From Streptomyces sp. NL15-2K (GTDB lineage: Bacteria > Actinomycetota > Actinomycetes > Streptomycetales > Streptomycetaceae): a stretch of DNA of 64,000 nt. The position numbers and the translations under genes were made by a program. The number at the start of each line of letters is the position of its first letter. The stretch's first letter is position 1. The notes beneath the pieces are model-generated. The model was given only the letters and a program-made list of their open reading frames with translations, ran no database searches and was not told where the DNA came from. Below, piece after piece: positions 318-34,939 of this stretch. The DNA lies in NCBI RefSeq assembly GCF_030551255.1, contig NZ_CP130630.1:6801501-6865500 (forward strand), given 5' to 3'.

Positions 318-337
318 GAACCCTGGATGGTCGTCCC

Positions 338-4226: not shown

Positions 4227-5086
4227 GTACACACCCGCGCATACTGCCTGTCCCCCTCTCGCCAGTGCACCGCGAGACGGTCGGCTCCTATCTGAACCGG
4301 CTCGCGGACGCCAACCGCCTGCCGGTCCGCTATCTGGCCGGTCTTCTCGGTCACAACCGTCATCACCGCCGTGACGACAACCGCACGGACCACTGGACCC
4401 CACGGGCCCTGCTCGGACTATCCGCCCTGACCGGCCGGGCACCCGCCGAACTCGTGCATGCGATGCCAGCTCTCGCCGAACTCAGCGAGGGCCAACGAAT
4501 CGGTCCACGCCCGAGCACCGGCCACGGCGATGCCCTTCACCGTCCGGCATGCCGCCCCTGCATGGCCCGGCGCGGAATCGACGGCCTCGTCGTCCGCGAG
4601 ACCCTGCCCCACGAAGCAGTCTGCCCACGACATCACCGCTGGCTCCTGGGCGACGAGCAGCATCTCCTCCGCGTTCTGCCCGACGTTCGCAGAGCCAACC
4701 AGCGCCACCGGCGACTCACGAGCCGCCGCAGGGGCTCCGCCCCCGAGCAGAGCTACCGCACCGCACGTGACAGCTTGCTGAAGTGGTTCCACACCGCCGC
4801 CGAGACACAGCTCCAACAGCGGTGGACGGACCGGATTCATCTCCTCGGCGAAGACATCTACGGAGACCCACTCCGCCCGTCTCCGAACCGCATCGAGATC
4901 GCGACCTACCCCGAAACGGTCATCCTCACCAGCCTGCTCTCATCACCGCACTGGCGCGATCACCAGGAATCGGCCCCGGAGATCGCACGCCGGTTCCAGC
5001 TCAAGGCAGGGAGCCGCGAGCTGGCAGCCCTCCAGAAACTGGCAACTTCCCTGAGACCGAGGCTCTCCCTGTCTCAATCAGACTGA
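4223..5086 (+). CDS. tniQ: TniQ/TnsD-like target-selection protein
   Basis: A 287-residue protein that should choose the insertion site. It opens with the TniQ-type segment containing ETVGSYLNRLADANRLP and then a zinc-finger pattern, CRPCMARRG followed by CPRHHRWL (CxxC...CxxH). It starts with TTG at 4223 inside the stop overlap TTGA. It is short compared with classical TnsD, so it probably holds the TniQ domain and only a small target-reading tail. The 3' end overlaps one of the right-end repeats (5034-5057). No CRISPR array or Cas gene is near, so protein-directed targeting is inferred. Confidence 0.85.
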   Translation: MSTHPRILPVPLSPVHRETVGSYLNRLADANRLPVRYLAGLLGHNRHHRRDDNRTDHWTPRALLGLSALTGRAPAELVHAMPALAELSEGQRIGPRPSTGHGDALHRPACRPCMARRGIDGLVVRETLPHEAVCPRHHRWLLGDEQHLLRVLPDVRRANQRHRRLTSRRRGSAPEQSYRTARDSLLKWFHTAAETQLQQRWTDRIHLLGEDIYGDPLRPSPNRIEIATYPETVILTSLLSSPHWRDHQESAPEIARRFQLKAGSRELAALQKLATSLRPRLSLSQSD

Positions 5087-5254
5087 CAACCCGCAGGTCA
5101 GCGGTCCTACCGCTTCCACCCTCGTTGACCCACGAAGTCCTGGTCGAACCCGCCGCACAGCCCCTGACACATCAAGGTGCGGCACCGTCTCACTCCAAGA
5201 TGACAACTCCCAGCTCAGAGCCAGGCAGTCCACCAACCTCATTGAGAACGGACA
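5034..5254 (-). repeat. Right-end transposase binding repeats of the Tn7-like element
   Basis: Read on the minus strand, four motifs match the left-end family: TCTCAGGGAAGTTGCCAGTT (within 5034-5057), CTGACCTGCGGGTTGTCAG (5083-5104), CTCTGAGCTGGGAGTTGTCA (within 5197-5222) and GTTCTCAATGAGGTTGGTGG (within 5229-5250). The first lies inside the 3' end of tniQ. The interval 5087-5281 holds no gene; these repeats and the element boundary are its only recognisable content. Confidence 0.6.
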
Positions 5255-5281
5255 GCCGGGTCCGCGCCGGCGAACGTCGGT

Positions 5282-5893
5282 TCACGCCTCCTCGGCCGCC
5301 CGCTGCCAGGTCAGGAAGTCCTCGATCAGTTCGGGTGGGTTGGCCGCCTCGGTGGCCTCGATCTCCCAGCCGGGGCAGTCCATGTCGAAGACCACGACCG
5401 GCAGGGGGCGGCCGAAGAGCTGCTCGATACGGCCGCTGTCGTGCAGATGACGCGCGAGGTCGATGCAGGCGTCGGCGAAGTGGAGGTTGAGGAGGTCGCG
5501 CTGGGCGTCGATCACGTCGTCCGCGCCCACCTCCACGTCATCGCCGTCGTACCAGAGGCCGAGCCGCTTGATCTCCTCGACGTACAGCGGGCCGCCGGCC
5601 GGGTCCTCGGGGACGTTGCCGAGGGTCTCGAAACCGTCGAGGAGCCAGCAGGCGTAGTTCCAGCGGGCCTCACCGGGGTCGTCCGGGCGCCTCTCCCGCT
5701 CGTACTGGCCCTCGGTGTTGTAGCCGATGGCGACGTAGGGGCGGCGGTCGTCGTAGTCGATGCGCCAGATGTTGAAGGAGAGGGCGTAGATCTCGCGTCT
5801 CGACGCCTCGGGGAAGCGTTCCAGGATGCCGGCGGCGGCCTCCCGTAGATGCGCCTGAAAAACTCCCGGCGATTCTTTCGGCCGGTCTGTCAC
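5282..5893 (-). CDS. Conserved hypothetical protein, function unknown
   Basis: A 203-residue soluble acidic protein with no signal peptide, membrane segment or catalytic motif that I recognise. Conserved-looking stretches include REIYALSFNIWRIDYDDRRP and ARWNYACWLLDGFETLG. GTG 5893 was chosen because GGGGG lies about 8 bases upstream; a longer frame from 6154 would run through the neighbouring gene. It is divergent from the AhpD-like gene, with about 90 bases between them, so the two may share a control region. It abuts the right end of the transposon. A DUF4303-like or immunity-type family is possible, but I cannot confirm it. Confidence 0.7.
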   Translation of the reverse strand: MTDRPKESPGVFQAHLREAAAGILERFPEASRREIYALSFNIWRIDYDDRRPYVAIGYNTEGQYERERRPDDPGEARWNYACWLLDGFETLGNVPEDPAGGPLYVEEIKRLGLWYDGDDVEVGADDVIDAQRDLLNLHFADACIDLARHLHDSGRIEQLFGRPLPVVVFDMDCPGWEIEATEAANPPELIEDFLTWQRAAEEA

Positions 5894-5986
5894 AACAACT
5901 GCCCCCGCTCCGTCAGTGCGGTGAAAGCGAAAACGAAGCGCCAGCTTCTCACTCACCTGCTCAGCACTGACACAGGAGGCATCACC

Positions 5987-6448
5987 ATGCAGGCTCGGAT
6001 GACGAACCCGGCGTACGTCCTTCCCGGCGCGATGAAGGGCATCGGCACCATCTTCCAGGCGATCGGCGAGGGCGGCCTGTCGCAGGAGGTGGCGGAGATC
6101 GTCGGGCTGCGTGCCAGCCAGATCAACGGGTGCAGCGCCTGCGTGCACGGACACGTCCTGAACATGCGAAAGGCCGGCGCGAGCGAGGAGCGCATCGCGG
6201 CCGTCGCCGCCTGGCGGGAGGCACCCTTCTTCTCCGACGCCGAGCGGGCCGCGTTGCAGCTGACCGAGTCGGTCACCCGCCTCGCGGACCGGTCGCAGGA
6301 CGCCGTACCGGACGCGCTGTGGGACGAGGTCGCCGACTACTTCGACGAGAAGGAGCTGTCGGCGCTCATCCTCACCATCTCCCTCACCAACATGTTCAAC
6401 CGCATCAACGCCACCATCAGGGAGCCGGCGGGGACGACCTGGGGGTGA
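5987..6448 (+). CDS. Carboxymuconolactone decarboxylase / AhpD-like protein
   Basis: A 153-residue all-alpha protein of the AhpD-like superfamily. The redox motif is INGCSACVHGH (Cys49, Cys52, His56), the CxxC-x3-H signature of alkylhydroperoxidase-type members, so a thiol-based peroxidase role is more likely than decarboxylation. ATG 5987 follows AGGAGG at 5974-5979. The sequence FFSDAERAALQLTESVTRL is typical of the family. It stands alone and divergent from the unknown gene upstream. The physiological substrate is not evident. Confidence 0.88.
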   Translation: MQARMTNPAYVLPGAMKGIGTIFQAIGEGGLSQEVAEIVGLRASQINGCSACVHGHVLNMRKAGASEERIAAVAAWREAPFFSDAERAALQLTESVTRLADRSQDAVPDALWDEVADYFDEKELSALILTISLTNMFNRINATIREPAGTTWG

Positions 6449-6493
6449 ACGCCGGGCGCGCAGCGTGCACCGGCCAGGAGGCCGGGCGGCGCG

Positions 6494-6758
6494 TCACGAC
6501 GTACAGACGTCCGTCAACGCGTCGCCGCCGCATCGATCCTGCTGGAGTCGGGGTTGGTGTCGCCGTTCAGGATGGACTTGTCCAGGCCGGCCTCGTGGAT
6601 GGACTTGAGGCTGTCGGCGATCGTGTCGGCGTTGGAGACACAGTCCAGTGAGGTGTCGATGTCGTCGGGTTCGCAGGCGGTGGCGAGGGCGGCGGTCAGG
6701 GTGACGGCGCCACCGCGGTGGCGATCGTGGTGATACGGCGTCGGCGGTTCCTGGGCAC
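6494..6758 (-). pseudogene. Degraded small lipoprotein gene
   Basis: Three reading frames must be joined to recover one protein. GTG 6758 (AAGGGA upstream) gives a basic leader RNRRRRITTIATAVA, a one-base shift gives LTAALATAC (a lipobox) followed by EPDDIDTSLDCVSNADTIAD, and another shift near the end gives DALTDVCTS and a stop at 6494-6496. From memory, intact Streptomyces relatives carry a longer central helical region between the IHEAG and ILNGDTNPDSS segments; here HEAGLDKSILNGDTNPDSS joins directly, suggesting an internal deletion. At least two frameshifts plus the deletion make it a pseudogene. Confidence 0.65.
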
Positions 6759-6902
6759 GGGAGCGTCCCTTCGACGAGGTCGGTCTGTCTGTGCCGTCCA
6801 CGATCCCGTCGCCCGCCCGTTGCCACGGGGGAGCCGACTGCCGTATCCAGGGTGTAGCCCGCTACACCCGGGGCTGTCGGCTCCCAGCCGCACGACCAGG
6901 CA

Positions 6903-8051
6903 CTACGCCCGGTACCGGCCCAACGTCCGCAACCCCGGCAGCGCCTTGTCCTCGAAGTCGAACAGCGCGAGGTTCTCCCAGGCGTTGCCCGACGTCGGGT
7001 CCGCCGGGTCCCAGCCGCTGCCGGCGCGGTAGGTCCACACGCCTTCCCAGTAGCAGTGGCCCAGGCCCTGGCCGTCCGGCACGGCGGCGGCGAGATCGGC
7101 GACCGCGCGCAGCCACGCGGCCTGGCCCTCGGGGGTGGCGGGGAAGCCCGGCGTGAGCTGCGAGGGGCTGTTCATGATGTCGTTGATCGCGTCCTCGCTC
7201 TCCAGCGTGAACGGGTACGCGGTCTCGGCGATCACGCACGGCTTGCCGTAACGGGCCGTGATGTCGGCCATGTTGGCGGCGGCCTGCTCCACCGTGCCGT
7301 GCCAGAAGGGGTAGTAGGACAGGCCGATGATGTCGAAGTCGACGCCGAGCGCGACCGCGTTGTCGAACCACCAGCGGTACAGCCCGTTGTCGCCGCCGTT
7401 GGCCAGGTGGAGGATCGTGCGGATGCGCGGGGTGGTGTCGCGGGCCGCGCGCAGGCCGGCCTTGAGGAAGGCGGCGAGGTTGTCCCAGTGCTCCCAGTTG
7501 CCCTCGGGCCAGATCATGCCGCCGTTGAGTTCGTTGCCGATCTGCACCAGATCCGCCGGGGTGCCCTGCCGCCGGAGCGCGCCGAGGACGTCGGCGGTGT
7601 GGTCGTAGACGGCCCGGGTCAGGCCCGCCACGTCCAGGTCGGCCCAGGCGGCCGGCTTGGTCTGGTGCGCCGGGTCCGCCCACCGGTCGGAGTAGTGGAA
7701 GTCGATCCAGATGCCGATGCCGGCCCGCTTCAGGCGGCGGGCCAGCGGGAGTATGCGCTTCTTGTTGTTGTAGCCGTCGGCCGGGTCGACCCAGACCTTC
7801 AGGCGGGCGTGGGTGATGCCCGCGTGCGCGAGGATGCGGACCGGGTCGTCGCGGCGGCCGTCGGCCCGCCGGTACACGGCGCCGTTGGCCTCGTTCTTCG
7901 GCAGCGAGGAGATGTCCATGCCTCGGATCTCCAGGCGACGGCGACTGCCCGCCGCCGAGGCGGAGGTGCTGGCGACGGCAGGTGCCGCGCCCAGCACGGG
8001 AACCGCCAGTGCGGCGCCTCCGGCAGCGGTGAGAACACTACGTCTGCGCAT
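6903..8051 (-). CDS. Secreted arabinogalactan endo-beta-1,4-galactanase (GH53)
   Basis: A 382-residue GH53 enzyme that cuts the beta-1,4-galactan backbone of arabinogalactan I outside the cell. A twin-arginine-type signal (MRRRSVLTAAGG, ending near ASA) starts the protein. Mature landmarks are RGMDISSLPKNEANG, the acid/base Glu in LVQIGNELNGGM and the nucleophile Glu in VIAETAYPF. The ATG follows AGGGA. It lies downstream of the GH42 gene on the same strand, separated by a tandem repeat, and beside an ABC importer and LacI regulator, which together form a galactan-use locus. Confidence 0.92.
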   Translation of the reverse strand: MRRRSVLTAAGGAALAVPVLGAAPAVASTSASAAGSRRRLEIRGMDISSLPKNEANGAVYRRADGRRDDPVRILAHAGITHARLKVWVDPADGYNNKKRILPLARRLKRAGIGIWIDFHYSDRWADPAHQTKPAAWADLDVAGLTRAVYDHTADVLGALRRQGTPADLVQIGNELNGGMIWPEGNWEHWDNLAAFLKAGLRAARDTTPRIRTILHLANGGDNGLYRWWFDNAVALGVDFDIIGLSYYPFWHGTVEQAAANMADITARYGKPCVIAETAYPFTLESEDAINDIMNSPSQLTPGFPATPEGQAAWLRAVADLAAAVPDGQGLGHCYWEGVWTYRAGSGWDPADPTSGNAWENLALFDFEDKALPGLRTLGRYRA

Positions 8052-8078
8052 TTCAGGGTCCCTTCACGGTGAAAGCCA

Positions 8079-8155
8079 CAGAGGAAGAACAAACGCGGAA
8101 CAACAGAGGAAGAACAAAACGCGGAACAACAGAGGAAGAACAAAACGCGGAACAA
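8079..8155 (+). repeat. Three tandem 25-26 bp units between two glycosidase genes
   Basis: The units at 8079-8103 (25 bp), 8104-8129 (26 bp) and 8130-8155 (26 bp) are nearly identical, each built as CAGAGGAAGAACAAAACGC plus GGAACAA; the first lacks one A. The purine-rich array sits in the gap between the GH42 stop and the GH53 start, so it would lie in the 5' leader of GH53 or in the intercistronic RNA. It encodes nothing evident. Confidence 0.9.
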
Positions 8156-8166
8156 GGGCAGGAAAC

Positions 8167-10207
8167 TCAGCGCGGCTCGCGGAACACCTCGACCGCCCCC
8201 GCCGGCACGGCCGCCCGACTCCCGTCCGGCAGCACCACCTTCACCTCGGCGTCGGTGTGGTTGACGGCGAACCGGAACACCTCCGACTCGCCCTCCCGTA
8301 CGACGAGTTCGACATCGCGCGGAAGATCGGCAGGCGTGACCCCCGCATCCGCGAGCGCGAGATCCACCACCGCCGCCAGATCGGCGCCGGTCAGCCGGGT
8401 CGCCAGATACCAGGCCGCTCCATCGCCCAGCGCCCGCCGGGTGAGCGCCGGCCGTCCCGCCGTACGGCCGTCGGCGAACACGGCCACCGTCTCGCAGCCG
8501 TCGCCGGGGACGACGTACTCGGACCACACATCGGCCCGGAGTTCCCGGCGGTCCGGCGTGCCGTCCGGACACAGGCGTGCCAGGCTGCCCTCGGTCATGC
8601 GTACGGTGACGGTCTCGTCCGGCAGCAGCGGGTCGAACTCCTCGACGGTCAGCCCGAGCACGTCCCGCAGTGCGCCCGGGTACGGCCCGGGATGCACGGC
8701 GTCGTGCTCGTCGACGATGCCGGAGAAGAAGGAGACCAGCAGGGTGCCGCCGCGCGAGACGTACCGCTCCAGGTCGGCGGAGACGGAGACGGGCGCCGAG
8801 TACAGCTGGGGGACGACGAGGAGCGGGCAGCGCGCGGGATCCAGCTCCGACAGTCCGGCCGGCGGCACGAAGTCCACCGTCAGGTGGCGGTCGTACAACG
8901 CCTCGTAGAACGCGTCGAGCCGCTCCCGCGCGTCCAGGTCCTTGCTCGGCCGCCACTCCAGACCCTGCGCCCACCAGGAGTCCCACGACCAGACCATGGC
9001 CACGTCGGCGCGTGTGCGCGTCCCGCGCAGGTCCGCCAGGTCGGCGACCCGGCGGCCGAGATCGGTGACCTCCCGCCAGACCCGGGTCCCGGTACCCGCG
9101 TGCGGCAGCATCGACGAGTGGAACTTCTCCGCACCCCGCCGCGACTGCCGCCACTGGAAGAACAGCGCGCCCTCGGAGCCGCGGGCGACATGGCCGAGGG
9201 AGTTGCGGGCCATCTGGCCCGGCGTCTTGGCGGGGTTGCGCGGCTGCCAGTTGATGCCCGACGTGGAGTGTTCGAGCAGCAGCCAGGGCGCGCCGCCCGC
9301 GACCGAGCGGGTGAGGTCGGCGGCGAGGGCCAGGTTGACGTGGGTGCGGCGGCCGTCGGTGATCAGGTAGTGGTCGTTGGTGACGAGGTCGACCTCGCGG
9401 GCCCACGCCCAGTAGTCGACCGAGGAGCACTGACTGGGCGCGACCATGAAGTTGGTGGTCACGGGCACGCCGGGGGAGAGGCGGTGCAGGATGTCCCGCT
9501 CGGCGACGAAGTTGGCGCGGGCCTGGGAGTCCGCGAACCGCTGGAAGTCCAGCTGGTGGGCCGGGTTGCCCACCGTCGGCGTGGCCCGGGGCACCCCGAT
9601 CTCCTCCCAGTCGCCGTAGAGCTGGCCCCAGAAGGCGGTGCCCCAGGCCTGGTTGAGGGCGCCGAGCGTGCCGTAACGGTCCCGCAGCCAGACCCGGAAG
9701 GCGGCGGCGCAGGTGTCGCAGTAACAACCGAGGACCGGAGCGCCGTACTCGTTGTGGACGTGCCACAGCACCACGGCCGGATGGCCCCCGTAACGCGAGG
9801 CGATCCGCGAAGTGATCTCCGCCGCGGCCGCCCGGTAGTCCGGATCGGAGTGGCAGATCGCCCCGCGTGAGCCGAACGCCAGCCGCACCCCCTCCCGGGT
9901 CACCGGCAGCGCCTCGGGGTGCGCCCGGTAGAACCAGGCCGGCGGCACCACGGTCGGCGTCGCGAGGTCCACGTTGATCCCGGTCTCGTACAGCATCCCG
10001 ATGATCCGGTCGAGCCACTCGAAGTCGTACTCGCCGGGCCGCGGTTCGATCCGGGACCAGGCGAAGATGCCGAGCGATACCAGCGTCACGCCGGCCTCGC
10101 GCATCAGCCGTACGTCCTCCTCCCACACCTCCTGCGGCCACTGCTCGGGGTTGTAATCGCCCCCCGAAGGCGAGTGGCAGGCGGTCGTGCGGGGCGGCGG
10201 AGGGCAT
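8167..10207 (-). CDS. Beta-galactosidase (GH42), one-base frameshift near the N terminus
   Basis: A family 42 glycosidase that would release galactose from imported galacto-oligosaccharides. The core begins DYNPEQWPQEVWEEDVRLM; the acid/base Glu is in WHVHNEYGAP and the nucleophile Glu in WLLLEHSTSG. The trimer-domain and C-terminal beta regions are present, giving about 680 residues. The natural start seems to be ATG 10207 (GGGAG upstream), giving MPSAAPHDRLPLAFGG, but a run of six G on the coding strand at 10159-10164 puts this out of frame with DYNPEQWP. Five G would restore the family sequence FGGDYNPEQW. Either the run was misread or the gene is newly broken. No good alternative start exists in the downstream frame. 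Confidence 0.85.
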
Positions 10208-10257
10208 GCGGTGGCTCCCGGGGATGGGCAACGGTGACGGCGCAGATGACGCCGGTT

Positions 10258-10276
10258 TCTGTGATCGTGCACAGTA
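10258..10276. promoter_or_regulatory. Putative LacI-family operator, glycosidase side
   Basis: TCTGTGATCGTGCACAGTA is the exact reverse complement of 10356-10374. Its core TGTG-N6-CACA with central CG is a LacI-type half-site arrangement. It lies about 50 bases upstream of the GH42 start on the minus strand. The likely binder is the LacI regulator encoded at 13735-14763. Confidence 0.7.
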
Positions 10277-10330
10277 CGGGATACCGCCGACATCCATGAG
10301 CAACAAGTAGGTAACCCCAGCCCTCCGCCA

Positions 10331-10374
10331 TTGACAAGGGGCCGAAACAATTCTCTACTGTGCACGATCACAGA
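10331..10374 (+). promoter_or_regulatory. Importer promoter overlapped by the second operator
   Basis: A good -35 (TTGACA, 10331-10336) is followed after 17 bases by TCTACT as a possible -10 (10354-10359). The operator TACTGTGCACGATCACAGA (10356-10374) covers the -10 and start region, the expected position for repression. Transcription would read into the sugar-binding protein gene at 10492. The -10 is a by-eye choice. Confidence 0.6.
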
Positions 10375-10491
10375 GCCGCGCGGCCCTCGCGCCCAGCCCC
10401 TCGGTCACGTCCGCAGAACCTCCCCCCACGGCGGTTGCCGCGTACGCGGGACGTCGACGAGGTCGGCTCGTCCAAGTCAGGGGAGATGAAG

Positions 10492-11823
10492 ATGTCGATC
10501 CACCGCCGCCAGATCAGCAGGCGCAGCATTCTCGCCGGGGCCGCCGCCCTCGGCATCACCAGCACCCTCGCCGCCTGCGGCGGTTCCGACGACGAAGACT
10601 CCGGCGAGAGCAGCGGCCCGGTCAAGCTGACCTACTGGTCGTGGGCGCCGAACATGGAGAAGGTCGCCGCGATCTGGAACAAGAAGAACCCGGACATCAC
10701 GGTCACCGTCTCGAAGCAGGCCAGCGGCGGTGAGATCGTCTCCAAGCTGATCACCGCGAAGAAGGCCGGCAACGCCCCCGACCTCGTCCAGGCCGAGTAC
10801 CAGTCCCTGCCGACCCTGGTCTCCAACGACGTGCTCGCGGACATCTCGAAGTACGTCGGCGACGTCAAGTCCGAGTTCTCCGAAGGCCTGTGGGAGATGG
10901 TCACCCTCGGCACCGACGCCGTCTACGGTGTGCCGCAGGACTCCGCGCCGCTGATGTTCTACTACCGCGAAGACCTGTTCAAGGAGCACGGACTCAGCGT
11001 CCCCAAGACGTGGACGGAGTTCGCGGAGGTCGCCCGCGCCGCCAAGAAAGCCGTCCCGGACGCCTACCTGACCACCTTCTCCTCCAACGACCCGGGCCTG
11101 TTCGCGGGCCTCGCCCAGCAGGCCGGCGCCAAGTGGTGGACCGTCGACGGCAGCGGCAAGTGGACCGTCGGCATCGACGACGCCGCGACGAAGAAGGTCG
11201 CCGAGTTCTGGGGCGGCCTGGTCCAGGAGGGCGTCATCGACAACCAGCCGATGTACACCCCGGCCTGGAACAACGCCCTGAACAAGGGCACCCACCTCGC
11301 CTGGGTCTCCGCCGTGTGGGCGCCCGGCGTGCTGGTCTCCTCCGCCCCCGACACCCAGGGCAAGTGGCGCATGGCCCCGCTGCCGCAGTGGAAGGCGGGC
11401 GACAACGTCACCGGCAGCTGGGGCGGCTCCTCCACCGGCGTCTCCAGCGACTCGAAGCACGCCGAGGCCGCGGCCAAGTTCGTCCGCTGGATCAACACCG
11501 ACCCTCAGGCGCTGGCCGCCCTGGTCAAGGAGGTCGCCGTCTACCCGGCCGCCACGAAGGGCCAGACCGGCGACGTGCTCGCCACGCCCGCGTTCTTCCC
11601 GAACCAGAAGGACTTCTACACCACGGCCGCCGAGATCGCCGCGACCACGGCCGCCTCCGCCTGGGGCCCGAACGTCCAGACCGCCTACACCACCTTCCAG
11701 GACGGCTTCGGCAAGGCCACCAAGGCGAAGAAGGAGGCCCAGTTCGCCTCCGCCCTCAGCACCATGCAGTCCAAGACCTTCGACGACATGAAGAAGCAGG
11801 GCTTCGAGGTGACCGAGGCATGA
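10492..11823 (+). CDS. Sugar ABC transporter substrate-binding lipoprotein
   Basis: A 443-residue extracellular binding lipoprotein of the carbohydrate uptake (CUT1) type. The leader MSIHRRQISRRSILAG ends in the lipobox LAAC (Cys29), with a GGSDDEDSGES linker after it. Family marks include KLTYWSWAPNMEKVAAIWNK and the aromatic-rich pocket region YGVPQDSAPLMFYYREDLF. ATG 10492 has AGGGGAG about 6 bases upstream; the ATG at 10486 would have no spacer. Two permease genes follow with 4-base overlaps. No ATPase gene is here, so a shared MsiK-type ATPase probably energises the importer. Galactan oligosaccharides are the inferred cargo. Confidence 0.92.
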   Translation: MSIHRRQISRRSILAGAAALGITSTLAACGGSDDEDSGESSGPVKLTYWSWAPNMEKVAAIWNKKNPDITVTVSKQASGGEIVSKLITAKKAGNAPDLVQAEYQSLPTLVSNDVLADISKYVGDVKSEFSEGLWEMVTLGTDAVYGVPQDSAPLMFYYREDLFKEHGLSVPKTWTEFAEVARAAKKAVPDAYLTTFSSNDPGLFAGLAQQAGAKWWTVDGSGKWTVGIDDAATKKVAEFWGGLVQEGVIDNQPMYTPAWNNALNKGTHLAWVSAVWAPGVLVSSAPDTQGKWRMAPLPQWKAGDNVTGSWGGSSTGVSSDSKHAEAAAKFVRWINTDPQALAALVKEVAVYPAATKGQTGDVLATPAFFPNQKDFYTTAAEIAATTAASAWGPNVQTAYTTFQDGFGKATKAKKEAQFASALSTMQSKTFDDMKKQGFEVTEA

Positions 11824-12815
11824 CCAGCACTCCGCTCAAGGGCGCCGACCGCACCGCGGTCGGGCCCTTGGCGGACGGCACCGGCACCGCCCAGTCCGTC
11901 CGCCCCAGCCGCGCCAGCCGCCGAGGCCGCAGCGCACCGTACTGGTTCCTGGTGCCCACACTGGCCCTGTTCGCCGCCTTCACCCTCGTCCCGATCGGGT
12001 ACGCGATCTGGCTCAGCCTGCACAAGGTCAAGGTCAAGGGCATCGGACTCGGCAAGGGCGCCCGCGAGGAGGTCTGGAACGGCTTCGGCAACTACACGGC
12101 CGTACTCCAGGACTCCGAGTTCGGGCACAGCGTGCTGCGCGCCTTCGGCTACGGCCTCATCGTCATCCCGACGATGCTGGGCCTGGCGCTGATCTTCGCG
12201 CTCATGCTGGACACCCCCAAGGCGCGCAGCGCGCCCTTCGCACGGCTCGCGATCTTCCTGCCGTATGCCGTGCCCGGCATCATCGCCGCCCTGATGTGGG
12301 GCTTCCTCTACCTGCCGGACGTCAGCCCCTTCTACTACCTGCTGGACAAGTTCGGCCTGCCGCAGCCGGACCTCTTCGACGGCGGCAACCTCTACCTCTC
12401 CTTCGCGAACATCGCGGTCTGGGGCGGCACCGGCTTCAACATGATCGTCATCTACACCGCGCTGCGGGCCATCCCGCCGGACATCTACGAGGCGGCGCGG
12501 ATCGACGGGGCGTCCGACCTCAAGATCGCCCTCCGGATCAAGATCCCGATCGTCATGCCCTCGCTGGTGCTCACCTTCTTCTTCTCGGTGATCGCCACCC
12601 TGCAGGTGTTCACCGAGCCCATGGCCCTGAAGCCGCTCACGAACAACCTGCAGAGCACGTGGAGCCCGCTGATGGCCATCTACGACAGCGCCTTCCTGAA
12701 GTCCGACATCTACGGCGCCTCCGCCACCGCGGTCGTCCTGGCCCTGGCCACGTTCGTCCTCTCCTTCACCATGCTGCGCATCTCCGACCGCTACACCCGG
12801 GAGGACCGGGCATGA
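11820..12815 (+). CDS. Sugar ABC transporter permease, MalF type
   Basis: A 331-residue inner-membrane permease with about six membrane helices, the first at PYWFLVPTLALFAAFTLV. The EAA loop that contacts the ATPase reads YEAARIDGASDLKIALRIKI. Its ATG overlaps the binding-protein stop, and its own stop overlaps the next permease start, so the three genes are one coupled unit. It forms a heterodimer with the next gene product. Confidence 0.93.
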   Translation: MTSTPLKGADRTAVGPLADGTGTAQSVRPSRASRRGRSAPYWFLVPTLALFAAFTLVPIGYAIWLSLHKVKVKGIGLGKGAREEVWNGFGNYTAVLQDSEFGHSVLRAFGYGLIVIPTMLGLALIFALMLDTPKARSAPFARLAIFLPYAVPGIIAALMWGFLYLPDVSPFYYLLDKFGLPQPDLFDGGNLYLSFANIAVWGGTGFNMIVIYTALRAIPPDIYEAARIDGASDLKIALRIKIPIVMPSLVLTFFFSVIATLQVFTEPMALKPLTNNLQSTWSPLMAIYDSAFLKSDIYGASATAVVLALATFVLSFTMLRISDRYTREDRA

Positions 12816-17113: not shown

Positions 17114-17452
17114 TCAACCGGGCGTCCGTGGGATCCACGTCTCCCAGGTCCGATGGAAGGCCACCTTGTCACCGGCCGCGCAAATCACCTCGTTCGAGAG
17201 GGGAAAGTCCGTTTGAGCGGCTCGGGCGCGAGGGCCGCGATCTGCGGGCCCCCGTCGGCCGGCTCCGTCGTCGAGTACTCGTCCGTCGGCATGCCCTCGC
17301 GGTTGCCGTGCCCGCGCACGTCAACCCGGACGGAGGCGTAACCGTGGCCCGCGTACCAGGGATGGCGTTGCCAGTCGCGGGGCGCGGTCCAGTCGGTGAG
17401 GCTCCTCGTGGGTCGTCTCGTAGGGGAAGGACGTACGGATGTGCAGGCTCAT
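17114..17452 (-). pseudogene. Remnant of a CocE/NonD-family hydrolase gene
   Basis: ATG 17452 starts SLHIRTSFPYETTHEE, the N terminus of CocE/NonD (X-Pro dipeptidyl-peptidase-like) hydrolases. After a frame change comes RDWQRHPWYAGHGYASVRVD and then VRGHGNREGMPTDEY, an early part of the catalytic domain. The end reads AGDKVAFHRTWETWIPRTPG and a TGA at 17114-17116, which matches the C-terminal jelly-roll domain of the family. Some 400 residues between these parts are missing, so internal deletion plus frameshifts have reduced the gene to its two ends. Confidence 0.65.
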
Positions 17453-17462
17453 CTCGATGACC

Positions 17463-17890
17463 TCGGTGGGCGGGGTGCATGGTGCGCCGCAGCCACGGTG
17501 CCGCGGCGATGACCGCCCGGCCCGCCGCCACCGCGATCGCGCCGTTGACGCCGAAGCAGGCGGGCTGGGTGCTGGAGAAGGCGGCCGGGGCGAGCTTGGT
17601 CGTGGCCGACATGAGGCAGGTGCCGCCGTCGTGTCCGCTCGTCGGCAGGGCCATCCAGGTCATGGTGGCGGTGGGCACCGAGGCGGGGGTTCCGGCCGAC
17701 ATGCCCGGGCCGCCGTGGGTGACCGTGTCGGCGAAGCAGAGGACGAGGATGGCCTGCATGCCGAGGAACGAGAGCCGTTCCCAGGCCTCGAGACCGGAGA
17801 AGGTGAGCAGGCCTGTGGGCTGGCCGAAGAAGGCGTGGTCGTCCTCGGGGTGCGGCGGTCGGCTGTCGGGCGTGGCGTCGGTGCCGATTC
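17463..17890 (-). pseudogene. Remnant of a POT-family oligopeptide transporter gene
   Basis: One open frame joins a POT/PTR2 N terminus (AFFGQPTGLLTFSGLEAWER and then LSFLGMQAILVLCFADTV) to a POT C terminus (GTCLMSATTKLAPAAFSST, then VNGAIAVAAGRAVIAAAPWL and RRTMHP). Most of the roughly 12 membrane helices expected between them are absent, and no start codon remains before the N-terminal part. With the adjacent CocE remnant this looks like one decayed peptide-use locus. Confidence 0.65.
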
Positions 17891-17892
17891 AG

Positions 17893-18104
17893 GACACGCG
17901 CTACTGCTTCCGTGTAAGTCGGTACATATCAGTTCTTATCGGGTGATCAAAAATATACCGGGAGTGATCCGATACCGCCCGAGCTGGACCGGCGGGCGCT
18001 ATCGGTGATCGAAACTTGACCGGATACGCTGACTTGAGTGATGTCAGCGACCTATCGACAAGCCGTGTAATCGCCAGTAGACACCAGCAGACAGGAGACC
18101 CCTC
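17893..18104 (+). promoter_or_regulatory. A/T-rich leader and promoter region of the polyprenyl synthase gene
   Basis: About 210 bases with unusually A/T-rich patches (for example GATCAAAAATATACC) and repeated GTGATC words. A possible -35, TTGACC at 18016-18021, lacks a clear -10 at the right distance. No gene seen. Confidence 0.35.
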
Positions 18105-19115
18105 GTGACCGTCGTCGGGCCGTTCGGGCTGAGCGTGCGGGACCAGGCTCTGGAAGCCGATGTCCAGGCCGGGTTGGCGGCTGTCGAGGAGGGATTGCTC
18201 GAAGCCACCAAGAGTGAGGTCCCTTTCATCACGGAGGCCGCCCAGCATCTGGTGCGGGCGGGTGGAAAGCGGTTCCGGCCGCTGCTTGTGATGCTCTCTG
18301 CCCAGTTCGGGGATCCGTATGCGCCCGGGATCGTTCCGTCGGCGGTCGTGGTGGAGCTGACGCACCTGGCGACGCTGTATCACGACGACGTCATGGACGA
18401 GGCGGAAGTGCGGCGCGGGGTGCCCAGCGCGAACGCCCGCTGGGGCAACTCGGTCGCCGTCCTCACGGGTGACTTCCTGTTCGCCCGGGCCTCGCACATC
18501 CTGGCCGACCTCGGGCCGGAAGCGGTGCGGGTCCAGGCGGAGGCGTTCGAACGGCTGGTCACCGGACAGATCCTGGAGACGGCGGGGCCGACGGACGGGC
18601 GCGACCCGGTCGAGCACTACCTGGACGTGCTCGCCGGCAAGACGGGGTCGCTGGTGGCCGTGTCGTGCCGGTTCGGGGCGATGATGTCCGGCACCGACGA
18701 GACGGTGGTGGACGTCCTGACGCAGTACGGCGAGCGGCTCGGCGTCGCCTTCCAGCTGGCGGACGACGTGCTGGACATCGCGTCCGACTCCCAGGAGTCC
18801 GGGAAGACGCCGGGGACGGACCTGCGCGAGGGCATCCCGACCCTTCCCGTGCTGCGGCTGCGGGAGCGGGCGGCGCGGCTGGGGCTGGCCGAGGACATCG
18901 CGCTGTGCGAGCTGCTGGACTCCGACCTGAGCGACGACGCGCGGCATGCCGAGGCGTTGACCGCGCTGCGGGCGCATCCCGCCCTGGAGCAGGCGCGGCG
19001 GGACACGGTGCGGTACGCGGAGGACGCGCGGGCGGCGTTGGCTCCGCTGCGCGAGTGTGACGCGAAGGTGGCGCTGATGGAGTTGTGCGATGCGGTGGTG
19101 CATCGGGCGGGCTGA
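18105..19115 (+). CDS. Polyprenyl diphosphate synthase (trans-isoprenyl type)
   Basis: A 336-residue class I prenyltransferase that condenses IPP with allylic diphosphates. The first Asp-rich motif is LYHDDVMDEA (Asp94, Asp95, Asp98) and the second is AFQLADDVLDIA; GGKRFRPLL binds IPP. Length and a small residue pattern before the first motif fit heptaprenyl/octaprenyl diphosphate synthases that make the menaquinone side chain, which suits a neighbourhood rich in complex I genes. It starts with GTG after AGGAG. Chain length is inferred. Confidence 0.9.
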   Translation: MTVVGPFGLSVRDQALEADVQAGLAAVEEGLLEATKSEVPFITEAAQHLVRAGGKRFRPLLVMLSAQFGDPYAPGIVPSAVVVELTHLATLYHDDVMDEAEVRRGVPSANARWGNSVAVLTGDFLFARASHILADLGPEAVRVQAEAFERLVTGQILETAGPTDGRDPVEHYLDVLAGKTGSLVAVSCRFGAMMSGTDETVVDVLTQYGERLGVAFQLADDVLDIASDSQESGKTPGTDLREGIPTLPVLRLRERAARLGLAEDIALCELLDSDLSDDARHAEALTALRAHPALEQARRDTVRYAEDARAALAPLRECDAKVALMELCDAVVHRAG

Positions 19116-29538: not shown

Positions 29539-29599
29539 AGCGGTTTCGTGCCGTGACCGCAGGCATATGCGCGAGCGCGAGTGAGGGAAGCTCGCCCGT

Positions 29600-31633
29600 T
29601 CACGGGACCCTTGGTGTCGCCAGGAGGTCGCGCCAGTGGTCGCGGAGGGTGACGCCGAGGGCGTCGTGGAAGAGGCGGTAGACGGTGGTGCCGTCGGCGG
29701 TGTCCGCGGTGAGGTAGCCGCCGAGGGGCGAGGCGAGCAGATCGGCGATGTCGGTGTCGCCGTAGGAGCGGTCGGGGTCGTCGGCGATGGCGTTGGCGAA
29801 CACCGGCCAGATGCGGCGCCAGGGGATTCCGCGGCCGCGGGCGAAGGCGACCGCTCGCAGCAGATGGACGGCCTTGAGGCGGTCCTCGGGGTCCTGGCGG
29901 TGGGTGTGCAGATCGGCGCGGAACACACCCAGGACGCCGTCGTCCACGGCCGTGAGCCAGGACCGGTCGTCGGGATCGACGACGGCGGGGCGACGGGCGA
30001 GGTTGGCGGCGGTGATGCGGGTGATCAGGAACGAGGTGCCGGCCCGCGCGGCCAGTGCCCGCGCCACGGATCCGGCCGCCTCGGGCGTGGCCGGGATGTA
30101 CGGGCTGCCGGGATGACCGGTCAGGACGCGGCAGGCGTACTCCTCGAGATCGCGCTGATTCCACCAAGGAGCCTCGTCGACGCGGACGCGGTGTGCCGCC
30201 AGGGCGCGTTCGGCCTGGTCGGCGAGAGGGATGCCCCGGGTGGGACGCACATCGGGAGAGGTGCCGTCGTCGCCGCCGGGGGAGCGCACGCCCACCAGCA
30301 GCCGGACCCGGTCCCGGCCGGGGTCGAGCCGGCTCAGGACCGCGGTGAGGACGGTGGCGGGGCTGTCGGCCTCGTCCAACGCGTCCACCACGACGGTGAC
30401 CGGCCTGCCGCGTGTGCCGAGCCACTGCTGCCAGGCGTCGATCCACTCCGCGGCCGACGGCCTCGCGGCCGCCGCGGCCGGTGCCGGTACACCGAGCGCG
30501 GTGGCGAGCTGCGCGATGATGTCGGCGGCGGTCTTCCCCGTGGCCAGCACCGCCACGTCCACCGCTCCCTCCGCGGGCCTCAGATCGGTGGGGACGGCGG
30601 CGAGCTTGTCATGGTGACGTGCGCGGAAGACCGGGTCGCTGAAGGTCACCAGCCAGGCCAGCGCGGCGGACTTGCCGCTGCCCGCGCCTCCGGTGACCAC
30701 GGTCGCCCCCGCACCGTCGGACGTGGCGGCGATCAGGTCGCGCAGCAGCTGGTCCCGGCCGGTGAACAGCCACCCGGCCTCCCCGGCGTGGGCCACGCCA
30801 CGGGAACGCGGCTCCCAGTGCGTCTCCAGGTCCTGCTGCGGCAGCGCCAGGTCGCTGCGCTGGACCTGGACGGGGGCGCTGTCCGGCGGACGGTAGTGCG
30901 GGTTGGGCAGACACGGGTGCATGCCGGACAGCTGGCTGCCGTGCAGCGGGAGCAGGCGCTGACCGGGGCCGAGCTTGGCCGCCACCCCTTCCAGGAAGAC
31001 CTGCACGTCCAGCAGCGGATACAGCCGCCCCGCATACTGCTCCCCTTCCCGTGACCGCAGCTCCGCCAGGAACTCGGTCACCGCTTCGGTCAGCGCGCCC
31101 TCCACGGCCTCCTGGTCGCGGGTGGCACTGGGGAGCACCAGCCAGGTCTCGGGCAGGTCCTTCTCGAACGCGGCCACCTCACGCAGGGTCGCCCCGGCGA
31201 AGCACTGGTCGAGGATCAGGAACAGGTACCGGATCCGGGTGTCCTTCAGCCACATGATCAGGTCGACCGTGCGCAGCGCGGTCGCCGCGAGCCGGTCCGA
31301 CTCGCTGGCCTGCAGCACCGTCCAGTGGACCCCGTCCCGGACGACGCCGTGACCGGTGACGAACACGACCGCCGCGTCCGCCTCCCGCCAGCGCCCGCGC
31401 GGCGGTGGATCCTCCAGCGCGTCGCGCACGGCCTGTTTGGTCGGGTTCTTCGCCAGTTCCGGATGCGCGTGGACGAAGGGCAGGGTTTTCAGGTCCCGCG
31501 AGCACAGCCACTCGGCCAGCGCTCGCACCTCGGCACCCACCGCCAGCGGCTTGAACACGGGGTCGTCGTACTCGCCGGTCGCGATGGCCACGAAATGACG
31601 GCGCCGGATCCCGGACCCCGACGACGCGCTCAC
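29600..31633 (-). CDS. Caspase-like protease fused to a STAND/NACHT-type NTPase
   Basis: A 677-residue protein. Residues about 13-160 form a caspase/metacaspase (C14) domain with catalytic His95 in FVTGHGVV and Cys144 in LILDQCFAG. A linker leads to a P-loop NTPase: Walker A TGGAGSGKSA (about 313-322), Walker B PVTVVVDALDEAD (about 411-423), then a winged-helix/arm region ending RLFHDALGVTLRDHWRDLL. It lacks the sensor repeats that usually follow such a core; a separate WD40 gene upstream could provide them. GTG 31633 overlaps the hydrolase stop (GTGA). Proposed role: regulated proteolysis in defence or cell death, by analogy with caspase-STAND proteins. Confidence 0.88.
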   Translation of the reverse strand: MSASSGSGIRRRHFVAIATGEYDDPVFKPLAVGAEVRALAEWLCSRDLKTLPFVHAHPELAKNPTKQAVRDALEDPPPRGRWREADAAVVFVTGHGVVRDGVHWTVLQASESDRLAATALRTVDLIMWLKDTRIRYLFLILDQCFAGATLREVAAFEKDLPETWLVLPSATRDQEAVEGALTEAVTEFLAELRSREGEQYAGRLYPLLDVQVFLEGVAAKLGPGQRLLPLHGSQLSGMHPCLPNPHYRPPDSAPVQVQRSDLALPQQDLETHWEPRSRGVAHAGEAGWLFTGRDQLLRDLIAATSDGAGATVVTGGAGSGKSAALAWLVTFSDPVFRARHHDKLAAVPTDLRPAEGAVDVAVLATGKTAADIIAQLATALGVPAPAAAAARPSAAEWIDAWQQWLGTRGRPVTVVVDALDEADSPATVLTAVLSRLDPGRDRVRLLVGVRSPGGDDGTSPDVRPTRGIPLADQAERALAAHRVRVDEAPWWNQRDLEEYACRVLTGHPGSPYIPATPEAAGSVARALAARAGTSFLITRITAANLARRPAVVDPDDRSWLTAVDDGVLGVFRADLHTHRQDPEDRLKAVHLLRAVAFARGRGIPWRRIWPVFANAIADDPDRSYGDTDIADLLASPLGGYLTADTADGTTVYRLFHDALGVTLRDHWRDLLATPRVP

Positions 31634-32481
31634 CGCGCCAGCTCCGGCAGTACGGCGAGCAGCGCGGCACCGGTCCGTCCCTTGCCCAGATACCGGGGGG
31701 CCGCGTGCGCGTCGCCCTCGTTGTCCACGGTCACGTCCCGCAGCCCGGGCCAGTAACGCTCCAGGCTGCCGGCGAACGCGACCGGGTCGTGGGGATCCCG
31801 TACGTTGACCCACGCGCCTACGTTGGCCGGCAGCCCCGCCGACCCGAGGGCGGGGTCGGGCATCAGGGCCCGCACGAACCGGGCCCCCAACGGCGATCCG
31901 AGCGTCAGCAGCAGGTCGATCCGGCGCTCGGGACGGCGACGTACGACCTCGAAGGCGACGACCGAGCCGAGGGAATGCCCGACCAGAACGCGGGTGTCGG
32001 CCGTCACCGCGGCGTCGACGATCCGGTCGACGGCCGTCTTGAGCGCGCCGTCGCGCAGATAGCGGCGGACCTGGCGGAACGCGCCGACGAACAACAGCGC
32101 CGCTCCGGGACCGTAACGCCAGTCCAGCGCCCGGCAGACCAGCTGCAGCACGGTCGGGACGCGGGTGTAGCCCTTGGCCGCCGCCCCCTCCACCGCTCGC
32201 AGCGCCTCGTCGCCCGCCGCTTCCGCGCCCACCTGAGCGAGCTCTGTCAGCTCGTCCGCCGGGAGGTCTGCCAGGTCGTTCGGATCGGTGCCGCCCTTCT
32301 TGCCGTCAGGGGTGCCGAGGAACAGACGCCCGTAGTAGGCGAGGTCGAACGGCGGCTCCCCGACGGGCGTTCCGGCGGCGGCCTCCAGGCCGTCCTCGAG
32401 AGCGGGGCCCCAGGCGGCCAGCAACTGCTTGCGCCCGAGCTGTTGTTGGGCGATCCCGTGCACACCCACTACGACTGCCAT
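31630..32481 (-). CDS. Alpha/beta hydrolase of the caspase/WD40 cassette
   Basis: A 283-residue hydrolase. It opens AVVVGVHGIAQQQLG, a strand with an oxyanion-type HG; the nucleophile is Ser170 in LVGHSLGSVVAF, with Asp near 236 (RDPHDPVAF) and His near 263 (GDAHAAPRYLG). It resembles lipase- or PGAP1-like esterases, with no signal peptide. ATG 32481 follows GGGGG. It lies between the WD40 gene and the caspase-NTPase gene and overlaps the latter by four bases, so the two are made together. It may be a second effector, but the substrate is unknown. Confidence 0.82.
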   Translation of the reverse strand: MAVVVGVHGIAQQQLGRKQLLAAWGPALEDGLEAAAGTPVGEPPFDLAYYGRLFLGTPDGKKGGTDPNDLADLPADELTELAQVGAEAAGDEALRAVEGAAAKGYTRVPTVLQLVCRALDWRYGPGAALLFVGAFRQVRRYLRDGALKTAVDRIVDAAVTADTRVLVGHSLGSVVAFEVVRRRPERRIDLLLTLGSPLGARFVRALMPDPALGSAGLPANVGAWVNVRDPHDPVAFAGSLERYWPGLRDVTVDNEGDAHAAPRYLGKGRTGAALLAVLPELAR

Positions 32482-32518
32482 ACACACCCCCGGTATCGGA
32501 AAGAACGAACCCCGCCGC

Positions 32519-34840
32519 TCACGCGTCCAGGCGCAACGACGCCATCAACAGGCCACCCCCGCCGACGAGCACGGTGAGTTCCGGGCCCGTCTCGACCGCC
32601 GCCATCACCCCCATCAGTCCCGGAACACGCAGCACTTCGCCCAGGGTTCGGCGCGCGGCCAGGTCCCACACCCGTATCTCACCGTCGACGCTGCCGGTGA
32701 CGGCGAGGGCGCGGCCGTCGGGCAGCACGGTCGCGGCGGTCGTGGTCACCCAGCTGGTGTGGCCGGTGAGGGGGTCCGCGATCGCTTCACCCGTCAGGGG
32801 GTCCCACACCAGGGCGTCCCGGCCGTGGCCGGTGACGGCGAAGGCGCGGCCGTCCGGGAGCACCGCGGCGGACAGAGATGTGAGGAACCTCCGTTCAAGA
32901 CCGGACAAGGGGGCGCCGACGGGTCTGCCTGTCGCGAGGTCCCATGTCAGTACCGTGTCGTCGTCGCCGGAGATGACGAGAACGCGGTCGTCGGGCAGGA
33001 GCAGGGCGCTCACCGCGGTGACGGGGTCGGTGTGGCCGGTCAGGGGTTCCCCCACCGGCCGGCTCGTCGCCAGGTCCCACACCCGGACCGTCGTGTCCTC
33101 GCTGCCGGTGACGGCGAGGGCACGGCCGTCGGGGGTGGACAGGGCGGCCACCGTGTTGACCCAACCGGTGTGGCCCCTCAGGGAACTGCGTTCGCCCGTG
33201 TCCAGGTCCCACACGTATGCGGCCGTGTCGTCGGCGTCGGTGATGACGAGGATGCGGCCGCCCGGCAGGACCAGGGCGGTGGTCGCGTTGACCGGGCCGC
33301 TGTAGCCGGTCAGGGGCTGTCCGACCGACTGGCCCGTCGCGGCGTCCCGCACCTGAACCGTGTCTTCCCCTTCCCTGCTGGTGAGGGCCAGGATCCGGCC
33401 GTCGGGAAGGGCGAGGGCGGCGACCGAGTTGACCATGCCGGCGGGATCGTTCGCAGGTCCGTCGAGCGCCCCGCCCGATGCCAGGTCCCACACCCGTACG
33501 TCCAGGCCGCCGGCGACGGCCAGCGTGCGGCCGTCGGGCAGCATCACATCGGTCACCGACAGCAGCCCGCTGACGCGGGACACGACTTGGCTGGTCGGCG
33601 GGCTGGTGGATATGTCCCAGACGCGCACCTCACCGTTGTCGTCACCGGAGACGGCGATGGCGCGGCCGTCCGGCATCGCCACCCCGGTCACCGCCGCGAT
33701 CGATGAGCGGTGCCCGGTCAGGGGCGGGCCGGCCGGGCGGCCGGACGGGATGTCCCAGAGCCGCAGAGTCTTGTCGTCGCTGCCGGTGACGGTGAGAGTG
33801 CGACCGTCGGGCAGGGTGAAGGCGCCTGCCGCGGTGACGCGGGAGGTGTGCCCGGTGAGGGGTTGGCCGACGGGCCGGCCCGATACGAGGTCCCACATCC
33901 GGACCGTCGTGTCGTTGCCGCCGGTGACGGCGAGGGCGCGGCCGTCGGGCAGCACCATTGCGGCCATGGCTCTCACCCCGCCGGTGTGCCCGGTCAGGGG
34001 CGGGCCGACGGGGTGGCCGGACGGGATGTCCCACATCCGGACCGTCGTGTCGTCGCCGCCGGTGACGGCGAGGGCGCGGCCGTCGGGCAGGAGGAGGGCG
34101 CTCACCGCGGTGACGGGGCCGGTGTGGCCGGTCAGGGGTTCACCCACCGGCTGGCCCGTCGCCAGGTCCCACATCCGGACCGTCTTGTCGTCGCTGCCGG
34201 TGACGGCGAGGGCGCGGCCGTCGGGGAGCGTCAGAGCGGCCACGGCGTTGATGCCGTCGGCGTGGCCGGTCAGGGGTTCGCCGACTTCCAGACCCGTTGC
34301 CAGGTCCCACACGCGCACCGTGGGGTTGTCACCGACGATGTCGCCCGTGACGACGAGGGCGCGGCCGTCGGGCAGCACCGCCACCGTGGCCGGGCCGACG
34401 GTTCCGGTGACACGTTCGCCGTGCTCCAGCGGCCAGTCCACCCAGCGCATGCGCCACCCGCCGGAGGTCTCGGGAAGGCCCGGCAGACCGGCACAGCGGG
34501 CATACGCCCACAGCGTGGTCGCATTGCCCCGCGGGCTGTCCCACTCCCAGGCGTGTGCCGCCTGCCGCCACACCCCCAGCAGATCCCGTCCGCGCCTTTC
34601 CAGCGACAGCGCGTCGAACGTCCCCGCGGCGGACACCGCTCGCAACCGGCCGGCGTCCACGTACGGCAGGAACTCCCACGACAGGAACCGCTCGTCCAGA
34701 ACTCCGCCCGCCGCCGCGTGCTCCACGGCGTGCCGCCGCACATACGCGGGCGGGACTCCGGCCGGGTCGGCCATCCGCGCCAACTCCCCGGCGATCCGCG
34801 CCTCTACCGCGCGGCGCTCCGCCGCAGCATCCGCCGCCAC
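32519..34840 (-). CDS. WD40 double-propeller protein with an N-terminal STAND-type arm
   Basis: A 773-residue protein. The first 130 residues are helical and include YVRRHAVEHAAAGGVLDERF, a segment that in fused caspase-STAND-WD40 proteins lies between the NTPase and the propeller. The rest has about 14 WD40-like repeats (cores such as VRVWDLATG, VRMWDIPSG, with PLTGH and LPDGRALAVTG), enough for two seven-bladed propellers. GTG 34840 was chosen because GGGAG lies 7 bases upstream; GTG 34909 would add 23 low-complexity residues. It is first of three genes on this strand and is probably the ligand-sensing half of a split STAND system. Confidence 0.87.
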   Translation of the reverse strand: MAADAAAERRAVEARIAGELARMADPAGVPPAYVRRHAVEHAAAGGVLDERFLSWEFLPYVDAGRLRAVSAAGTFDALSLERRGRDLLGVWRQAAHAWEWDSPRGNATTLWAYARCAGLPGLPETSGGWRMRWVDWPLEHGERVTGTVGPATVAVLPDGRALVVTGDIVGDNPTVRVWDLATGLEVGEPLTGHADGINAVAALTLPDGRALAVTGSDDKTVRMWDLATGQPVGEPLTGHTGPVTAVSALLLPDGRALAVTGGDDTTVRMWDIPSGHPVGPPLTGHTGGVRAMAAMVLPDGRALAVTGGNDTTVRMWDLVSGRPVGQPLTGHTSRVTAAGAFTLPDGRTLTVTGSDDKTLRLWDIPSGRPAGPPLTGHRSSIAAVTGVAMPDGRAIAVSGDDNGEVRVWDISTSPPTSQVVSRVSGLLSVTDVMLPDGRTLAVAGGLDVRVWDLASGGALDGPANDPAGMVNSVAALALPDGRILALTSREGEDTVQVRDAATGQSVGQPLTGYSGPVNATTALVLPGGRILVITDADDTAAYVWDLDTGERSSLRGHTGWVNTVAALSTPDGRALAVTGSEDTTVRVWDLATSRPVGEPLTGHTDPVTAVSALLLPDDRVLVISGDDDTVLTWDLATGRPVGAPLSGLERRFLTSLSAAVLPDGRAFAVTGHGRDALVWDPLTGEAIADPLTGHTSWVTTTAATVLPDGRALAVTGSVDGEIRVWDLAARRTLGEVLRVPGLMGVMAAVETGPELTVLVGGGGLLMASLRLDA

Positions 34841-34939
34841 GCGACCACTCCCGCCCCCGTCCCCGCCGTCCGGTGGGGCTCCACTGTAGGAGCAATACCC
34901 ACTCGTCACCCGGAAGTTCGCGGAACTGTGCGATGGGCA

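Follow-up and report, generated by a model that had tools for sequence, protein, structure and literature searches.

Organisation of the cassette

The 64,000 nucleotide stretch of Streptomyces sp. NL15-2K DNA analysed here (contig NZ_CP130630.1, positions 6,801,501 to 6,865,500, of the 12.4 Mb assembly GCF_030551255.1) is referred to as the window, and positions are counted within it. Three minus strand genes of the window encode, in reading order, a WD40 protein, an α/β hydrolase and a caspase-NTPase. An initial annotation, made from the letters alone, had described these genes in the same order, and all were found where it had placed them. The WD40 protein gene (32519..34840; GTG start, 773 amino acids) opens with a helical arm (residues 1-145; 34406..34840), which in single-chain relatives directly follows the NTPase. 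The arm is followed by WD40 blades, encoded by a tandem DNA repeat (32954..34321; period 138/276 bp). The hydrolase gene (31630..32487) starts at GTG 32487 (285 amino acids) or ATG 32481 (283 amino acids). The serine of its GHSLGS motif is residue 172, or residue 170 when counted from the ATG, as had been done originally. The hydrolase stop codon and caspase-NTPase start codon overlap by 4 nucleotides (GTGA). The caspase-NTPase gene (29600..31633; GTG start, 677 amino acids) encodes a caspase domain (about residues 9-245; 30899..31609), with His95, Cys144 and the motif DQC, and then a STAND NTPase (about residues 280-677; 29600..30796). Walker A spans G315-S322 and Walker B extends to E421. 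The winged-helix region comes last, after which the chain ends.

The catalytic and Walker residues, already picked out from the window, are kept across relatives; the parts are thus not due to chance. His95 and Cys144 occur in 92/92 core (i.e. caspase-NTPase) sequences, as do the Walker lysine 321 and acidic residues 417 and 421. The caspases carry DxC (65/92) or NxC (27/92). The first domain is a member of the caspase superfamily (C14-like fold) with a His/Cys dyad. The second is an Apaf-1-like STAND ATPase, having a P-loop, Walker A and B motifs and a winged helix, with a sensor to follow. This assignment rests on a match to AAA_22 above the Pfam cut-off (E 1.6e-8), the invariant Walker residues and the Apaf-1 and MalT fold matches of a homologue, described below. 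Pfam nSTAND1 and NACHT scored below their cut-offs in the caspase-NTPase. Searches by sequence gave no convincing relative of solved structure for the core or hydrolase. The cassette is not a single-chain caspase-STAND-WD40 protein; the WD40 part is separate and the hydrolase gene lies between.

The chain is broken between the NTPase and the arm

The proposal that the WD40 protein begins with the segment that follows the NTPase in single-chain relatives holds. At locus L078 of Streptomyces flavidovirens, a stop-to-stop frame of 1640 codons contains both parts consecutively. The caspase-NTPase aligns with this frame at 56% over 664 columns, and the WD40 protein at 41% over 793 columns. The alignment places the break at the NTPase/arm border. 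In the window, the caspase-NTPase chain stops immediately behind the final winged-helix helix, and the WD40 protein opens with the helical arm that comes next. A model of the L078 chain, covering the caspase to the arm, was built from an alignment of 69 rows (predicted local distance difference test score (pLDDT) 88, predicted template modelling score 0.89). Residues 1-243 of the model match caspases and residues 250-811 match Apaf-1, with a further match to the MalT fold, and the arm is the part after the winged-helix region. Judged from this model, the intact form is an Apaf-1-like ATPase that carries a caspase in front, and the window has it in two pieces.

Profiles for the caspase, NTPase, arm, hydrolase and WD40 repeats were run on six-frame translations of fetched loci, and genes were called fused or split on the basis of domain profiles derived from the family itself. 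The tree and the counts leave out five loci (L106, L114, L126, L132 and L133), along with six partial genes and six duplicates. Among the 92 full-length non-duplicate core genes, the arm is part of the same chain in 60 and absent from it in 32. The WD40 protein is therefore separable, as had been suggested, with the split at the NTPase/arm border in 32/92 genes. Placement in the 32 split cores was counted by arm-bearing genes. Most (21/32) have the WD40 gene downstream, with no S-family hydrolase upstream. The WD40 gene lies upstream, beyond the hydrolase, in four (the window, L074, L077 and L035), and two have a downstream WD40 gene together with an upstream hydrolase (L034 and L076). One core has WD40 genes on both sides (L173). 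The WD40 gene is upstream on the other strand in three more, with a hydrolase at L082 and L086 and without one at L080. At the remaining core, L101, there is a WD40 gene downstream and another on the other strand. Thus, the three-gene order of the window recurs, being found in four loci including the window, and in L173 with its genes on both sides. At L034, WD40 repeats are also present upstream of the hydrolase, where the contig end cuts them before the arm. In the annotated plasmid records L173, L176 and L177, the caspase-NTPase gene and the WD40 gene downstream of it share 4 bases. Behind the L101 core (Pseudonocardia lacus, 98-8851) stand two arm-WD40 genes in tandem, whose arms are closely related; the third arm gene, that on the other strand, is close to the end of the contig.

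A quick tree needed seven changes between fused and split states, six of them forced by starred branches. A more thorough tree, limited to the 16 nearest leaves, had open forks and did not reject one all-split group of seven (p 0.081). Hence, the number of independent breaks is uncertain.

Upstream WD40 genes may be a lineage of their own

The initial annotation explained the window by a single event: one cut through a local single-chain gene, transfer of the WD40 half of that gene to an upstream position and placement of a hydrolase gene in the gap. The recurrence of the WD40-hydrolase-caspase order in four loci, and at L173, fits this account, as does the continuity of the arm with single-chain relatives. 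The arms themselves argue otherwise. In the arm tree, the upstream genes of the window, L074, L173, L035 and L077 group together (support 88/87). After removal of three rows the support was 83/83, which is suggestive and not starred. The downstream genes of L173, L076 and L034 form another group (98/95). Forcing the window and L074 arms into the downstream group was rejected (approximately unbiased test, p 0.007, for a group named after the tree had been seen). Forcing the two L173 WD40 genes together was rejected far more strongly. Identities agree with the tree: the window arm is 70, 56, 54 and 49% identical to the other upstream arms, 35-36% to the downstream arms of the nearest cores and 42% to that of the fused L081 gene. 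The thorough core tree unites L173, L034/L076 and window/L074 in one starred group. For L173, the annotated start of the upstream WD40 gene lies downstream of the arm, which was read from a longer open frame.

The move of a sensor half is thus probably wrong in detail. The trees and identities suggest that upstream WD40 genes form their own lineage, which in L173 sits beside a downstream WD40 gene. The simplest history would be that the ancestor of the starred group had a core flanked on either side by a WD40 gene. The downstream gene would then have been lost in the line of the window, and the upstream gene in L076. With a hydrolase already beside unsplit genes (see below) and WD40 genes both upstream and downstream at L173, the single cut-and-move event seems improbable.

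The hydrolase is a near-constant partner of the core

The partner enzyme is a serine-type α/β hydrolase, having the fold and the nucleophile-acid-histidine set. Ser172 and Asp234 were kept in 72/72 hydrolase rows, and His261 in 71/72, with the window sequence entered twice. The predicted model has a pLDDT of 89. Weak family matches were to PGAP1 and LCAT. Some cores have an alternative partner, of an LCAT-like family that scored above cut-off in 3/3 tested. We also considered a DDHD phospholipase identity, hinted at by the longest structural alignments and by a motif. DDHD was absent among 25 of the 27 Pfam families listed for 33 members, and the identity is only a lead.

An α/β hydrolase of one of the two profile families lies within 9 kb of 66/68 core-picked genes. 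This is a raw neighbourhood count of genes with caspase and NTPase scored in one frame; it excludes L034-L071 (picked by the hydrolase), L072-L073 (from the genome of the window) and duplicates L075 and L083, and its plasmid part comprises 5 of 30 plasmid records. The initial annotation was thus right that a second enzyme accompanies the caspase-NTPase. Just upstream, and on the same strand, the family found in the window also flanks 38/60 fused genes, 19 of which were at loci picked by that hydrolase. Because the hydrolase is already beside unsplit cores, it was not inserted between two halves. Pairing of caspases with hydrolases has been published for other systems (PMC7159879, available part).

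Such pairing has more than one possible meaning. The hydrolase may control the caspase, as an inhibitor, antidote or maturation factor, or be a lipid enzyme of the usual kind whose activity is regulated by cleavage. That the pairing is near-constant, in more than one orientation and with members of both families, fits an antidote or substrate as well as a second toxin, and the overlap of the hydrolase stop with the caspase-NTPase start is also in keeping with a partner role. Against this, retention of the serine, aspartate and histidine in 71-72/72 rows argues that catalysis matters, and the LCAT-like second family suggests lipid substrates. We give these alternatives some weight, without thinking them probable. 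A variable loop of the hydrolase (residues 57-75; about 32319-32263) contains lysine in 33/33 near relatives, and the model has a pLDDT below 50 at residues 62-67. DxC caspases prefer basic residues. Cleavage of the hydrolase by the caspase at this loop is possible, as an idea only; the wider family does not keep the lysine.

The WD40 propellers diverge faster than the core

The family repeat profile scored 13 WD repeats in the WD40 protein, spaced by ~46 amino acids, and Pfam WD40 (PF00400) matches with E 7e-68. The protein probably has about 14 blades, forming two propellers. The blades of the window are tandem repeats with DNA identity of up to 82%; amplified propellers in general are described likewise in the available part of PMC9218822. 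In PADLOC-DB, the protein matched HEAT-ARM_XIII (E 2.3e-16), which we take for a repeat match, and a Cas6 model (E 0.03), which is a chance match.

Between the window and L074, identity is 80% for the caspase, 83% for the NTPase, 82% for the hydrolase, 70% for the arm and 48% for the propeller. When related systems whose cores share 45% identity or more were compared in pairs, the propeller was the less similar part in 441/446. These pairs were prefiltered on shared 4-letter words, and they share members, so are not independent. In the remaining five pairs the propeller is as alike as the core, or more so; for example, L044 and L053 have cores 57% and propellers 65% identical. Some propellers of the fused systems L044, L043, L053 and L064 are slightly more alike than their cores, and sensor exchange between cores may be the reason.

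A proposed two-chain signalling ATPase

We consider the cassette most readily understood as a two-chain Apaf-1-like signalling ATPase, with a built-in protease, a WD40 sensor chain and a hydrolase that acts as second effector or caspase substrate; we put the probability of this reading at roughly 0.55. It starts from the parts, the break point, the kept catalytic residues, the near-constant hydrolase and the faster divergence of the propeller. Docking, ligand gating, assembly, cleavage, a lipid target and a biological role are inferred, the mechanism by analogy with Apaf-1. Chain 1 would comprise the caspase, nucleotide-binding switch and winged helix, and chain 2 the arm and WD40 propellers. 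The arm would dock on the winged-helix end of chain 1, with the propellers keeping chain 1 inactive. Ligand binding to the propellers would free the switch, allowing chain 1 to assemble with ATP. Assembly would bring caspase domains together and so cause cleavage. The α/β hydrolase, probably a lipid ester hydrolase, would be the second effector or a caspase substrate. The outcome would be cell arrest or death, possibly against phages; such anti-phage action is plausible.

The upstream WD40 protein might instead be a scaffold or regulator that no longer docks, leaving the caspase-NTPase to act alone or with a sensor encoded elsewhere. The chain break does remove the covalent tie, and the arm changes faster than the core between the window and L074. 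Furthermore, the WD40 gene is on the other strand, some kb off, in Trebonia (L082) and Streptomyces 13-12-16 (L086), and the arm tree places that of L086 apart from the near group. Conversely, gene order is preserved in several near relatives. A search of the window's own genome with the arm profile, in which 150 of 649 first-look candidates were scored, gave two clear arm genes, each adjoining its own core, one weak match and no clear orphan WD40 sensor. Loss of docking is unlikely in our view. The second clear arm gene belongs to another split system, at 7.17 Mb of the same genome (G000:C1, about 7163700-7168330; locus L072). Here, the caspase-NTPase (core frame 7698-9986) is directly followed by its own arm-WD40 gene (frame 9958-12330), and an LCAT-like hydrolase is divergent.

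Several observations weigh against the two-chain signalling ATPase. Docking of separate chains is extrapolated from the fused homologue; the folded model is that of L078, not of the window chains. The caspase domain reached 56.6 bits with NCBIfam NF047832, for which the cut-off is 140, and no Pfam C14 match was reported in the window caspase-NTPase. No Pfam family was above cut-off for the hydrolase. Pairing with a hydrolase has limits. At L080 (Lentzea aerocolonigenes, 7515-12076), a split core with a divergent WD40 gene, no hydrolase was found. L080 is the one clear exception among the 68 core genes. In 29 more distant loci, where the NTPase scored without the caspase, a hydrolase was present in 25 and none was found by the same test in four (L111, L120, L125 and L139); at L142 and L143 no NTPase scored. 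The faster-changing propeller is also seen in fused systems, and it may result from relaxed constraint or the turnover of blades and not from selection on sensing. No defence setting emerged in the window, where PADLOC gave one weak regulator-model match among ten chosen open frames neighbouring the cassette. Finally, no relative was confirmed in the phage and viral contig collections searched.

The cassette of this soil bacterium resembles an animal cell-death switch in its parts, and suggests that a sensor of this family can be detached, relocated or duplicated, with the death enzymes remaining as one unit. More tentatively, the system could be a bacterial apoptosome in which one caspase-ATPase core accepts arm-WD40 proteins in trans, with sensors that the lineage could multiply and exchange and the protease and lipase fixed. 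The sensor would then be encoded upstream, as in the window, downstream, or both, as at L173, in part at L034, and in tandem at L101. If the two-chain reading is true, the cassette is a natural two-chain Apaf-1-like switch, whose sensor and motor could be isolated, combined and interchanged with no need for engineering. This would allow direct tests of the way in which WD40 propellers restrain and free an ATPase that bears a caspase. The published remark on caspases and neighbouring hydrolases would also come to cover this ATPase family, in which the hydrolase is of either of two families.

Comparison with known systems

Apaf-1 recruits caspase-9 through CARD. The window differs from Apaf-1 and CED-4 (STAND, AP-ATPase clade) in having the caspase on the ATPase chain, with the arm and propellers on another. 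The Apaf-1 apoptosome is described in the available part of PMC7159879. Single-chain 'Metacaspase-NACHT-WD40' proteins, as presented in the available part of PMC3501461, have the same kinds of domain in the same order as the parts of the window; they differ in that the window is broken at the NTPase/arm border, with the WD40 part an upstream gene. The cyanobacterial WRAP and STAND-TIR(-caspase) operons (PMC9218822, in part) encode a STAND protein with 14 recently amplified WD40 blades and an adjoining second signalling protein. In those operons each protein has a STAND domain, whereas the WD40 protein of the window has none. The accessible parts of the open-licence literature contained no description that we could find of a split caspase-STAND/arm-WD40 pair, or of a core with two WD40 genes. 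Caspase-STAND-WD40 proteins and the caspase-hydrolase pair are already known, and the split and double-sensor forms are a variant.

Two further systems share features with the window, and membership of either was rejected on the parts tested. VMAP ternary systems have a caspase with a neighbouring α/β-hydrolase gene, said to be always present in the part of Kaur et al. (2020; PMC7159879) available; the window likewise pairs a caspase with an adjoining α/β-hydrolase gene. VMAP-C was not found in the window, the nearest match being ~0.9 Mb away, and MoxR and vWA genes were not searched for. The same source describes a two-gene EACC1-caspase system, to which the weak NF047832 match (56.6 of 140 bits) relates the window caspase; no EACC1 match was found in or near the window. 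Elsewhere in the genome, VMAP-C matches occur at four places (G000:C1 3535801, 7774575, 8801202 and 10067054) and EACC1 matches at three (4144324, 6106702 and 211007). They mark other multi-gene conflict-type systems.

Genomic setting and mobility

The nearest named relatives of the cassette proteins are from Streptomyces and other actinomycetes, and the relatives confirmed in one of the searches are actinomycetes except for one weak NTPase-only match in Pseudomonas. Of 204 homologues found, the 120 listed are mostly about 680 amino acids long. A search for further near relatives in two other genera (35 and 70 genomes) gave one, already known. No system match was found in PADLOC-DB 2.0, with 0 families for the caspase-NTPase and 0 for the hydrolase at E up to 1. 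Pfam families identify, among the neighbours in the window, an HxlR regulator, MFS and EamA transporters, an M28 peptidase and a glyoxalase-like protein.

This actinomycete distribution, and the poor yield of defence genes among the ten window neighbours, would suit a role in Streptomyces development or programmed death of the mycelium, instead of defence. The plasmid relatives and the empty site described here point to an accessory, transferred trait. Flanks were read in three relatives. In G257 the matching flanks are 626 bp apart, compared with 5.4 kb in the window, so this site is empty; the extra DNA of the window spans 29551..34939. G262 and G252 have other DNA at this position, with 3.6 and 5.1 kb between the flanking genes and no DNA-level match to the cassette genes. 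Some relative is held by 30 plasmid records, and a 72%-identical core is on the 346-kb linear plasmid of Streptomyces sp. Alt1 (L173). When ten neighbours of four plasmid loci were searched with PADLOC, an AbiEii-like gene (L175) and a ParA-like protein matching a candidate model (L173) were found. With these plasmid relatives, the AbiEii-like neighbour and one empty site in three genomes, a developmental role appears rather unlikely. On the L173 plasmid, genes for a HEAT-repeat protein and a TnsA-like transposase subunit (1886-3988 and 17382-18185) lie near the four-gene system.
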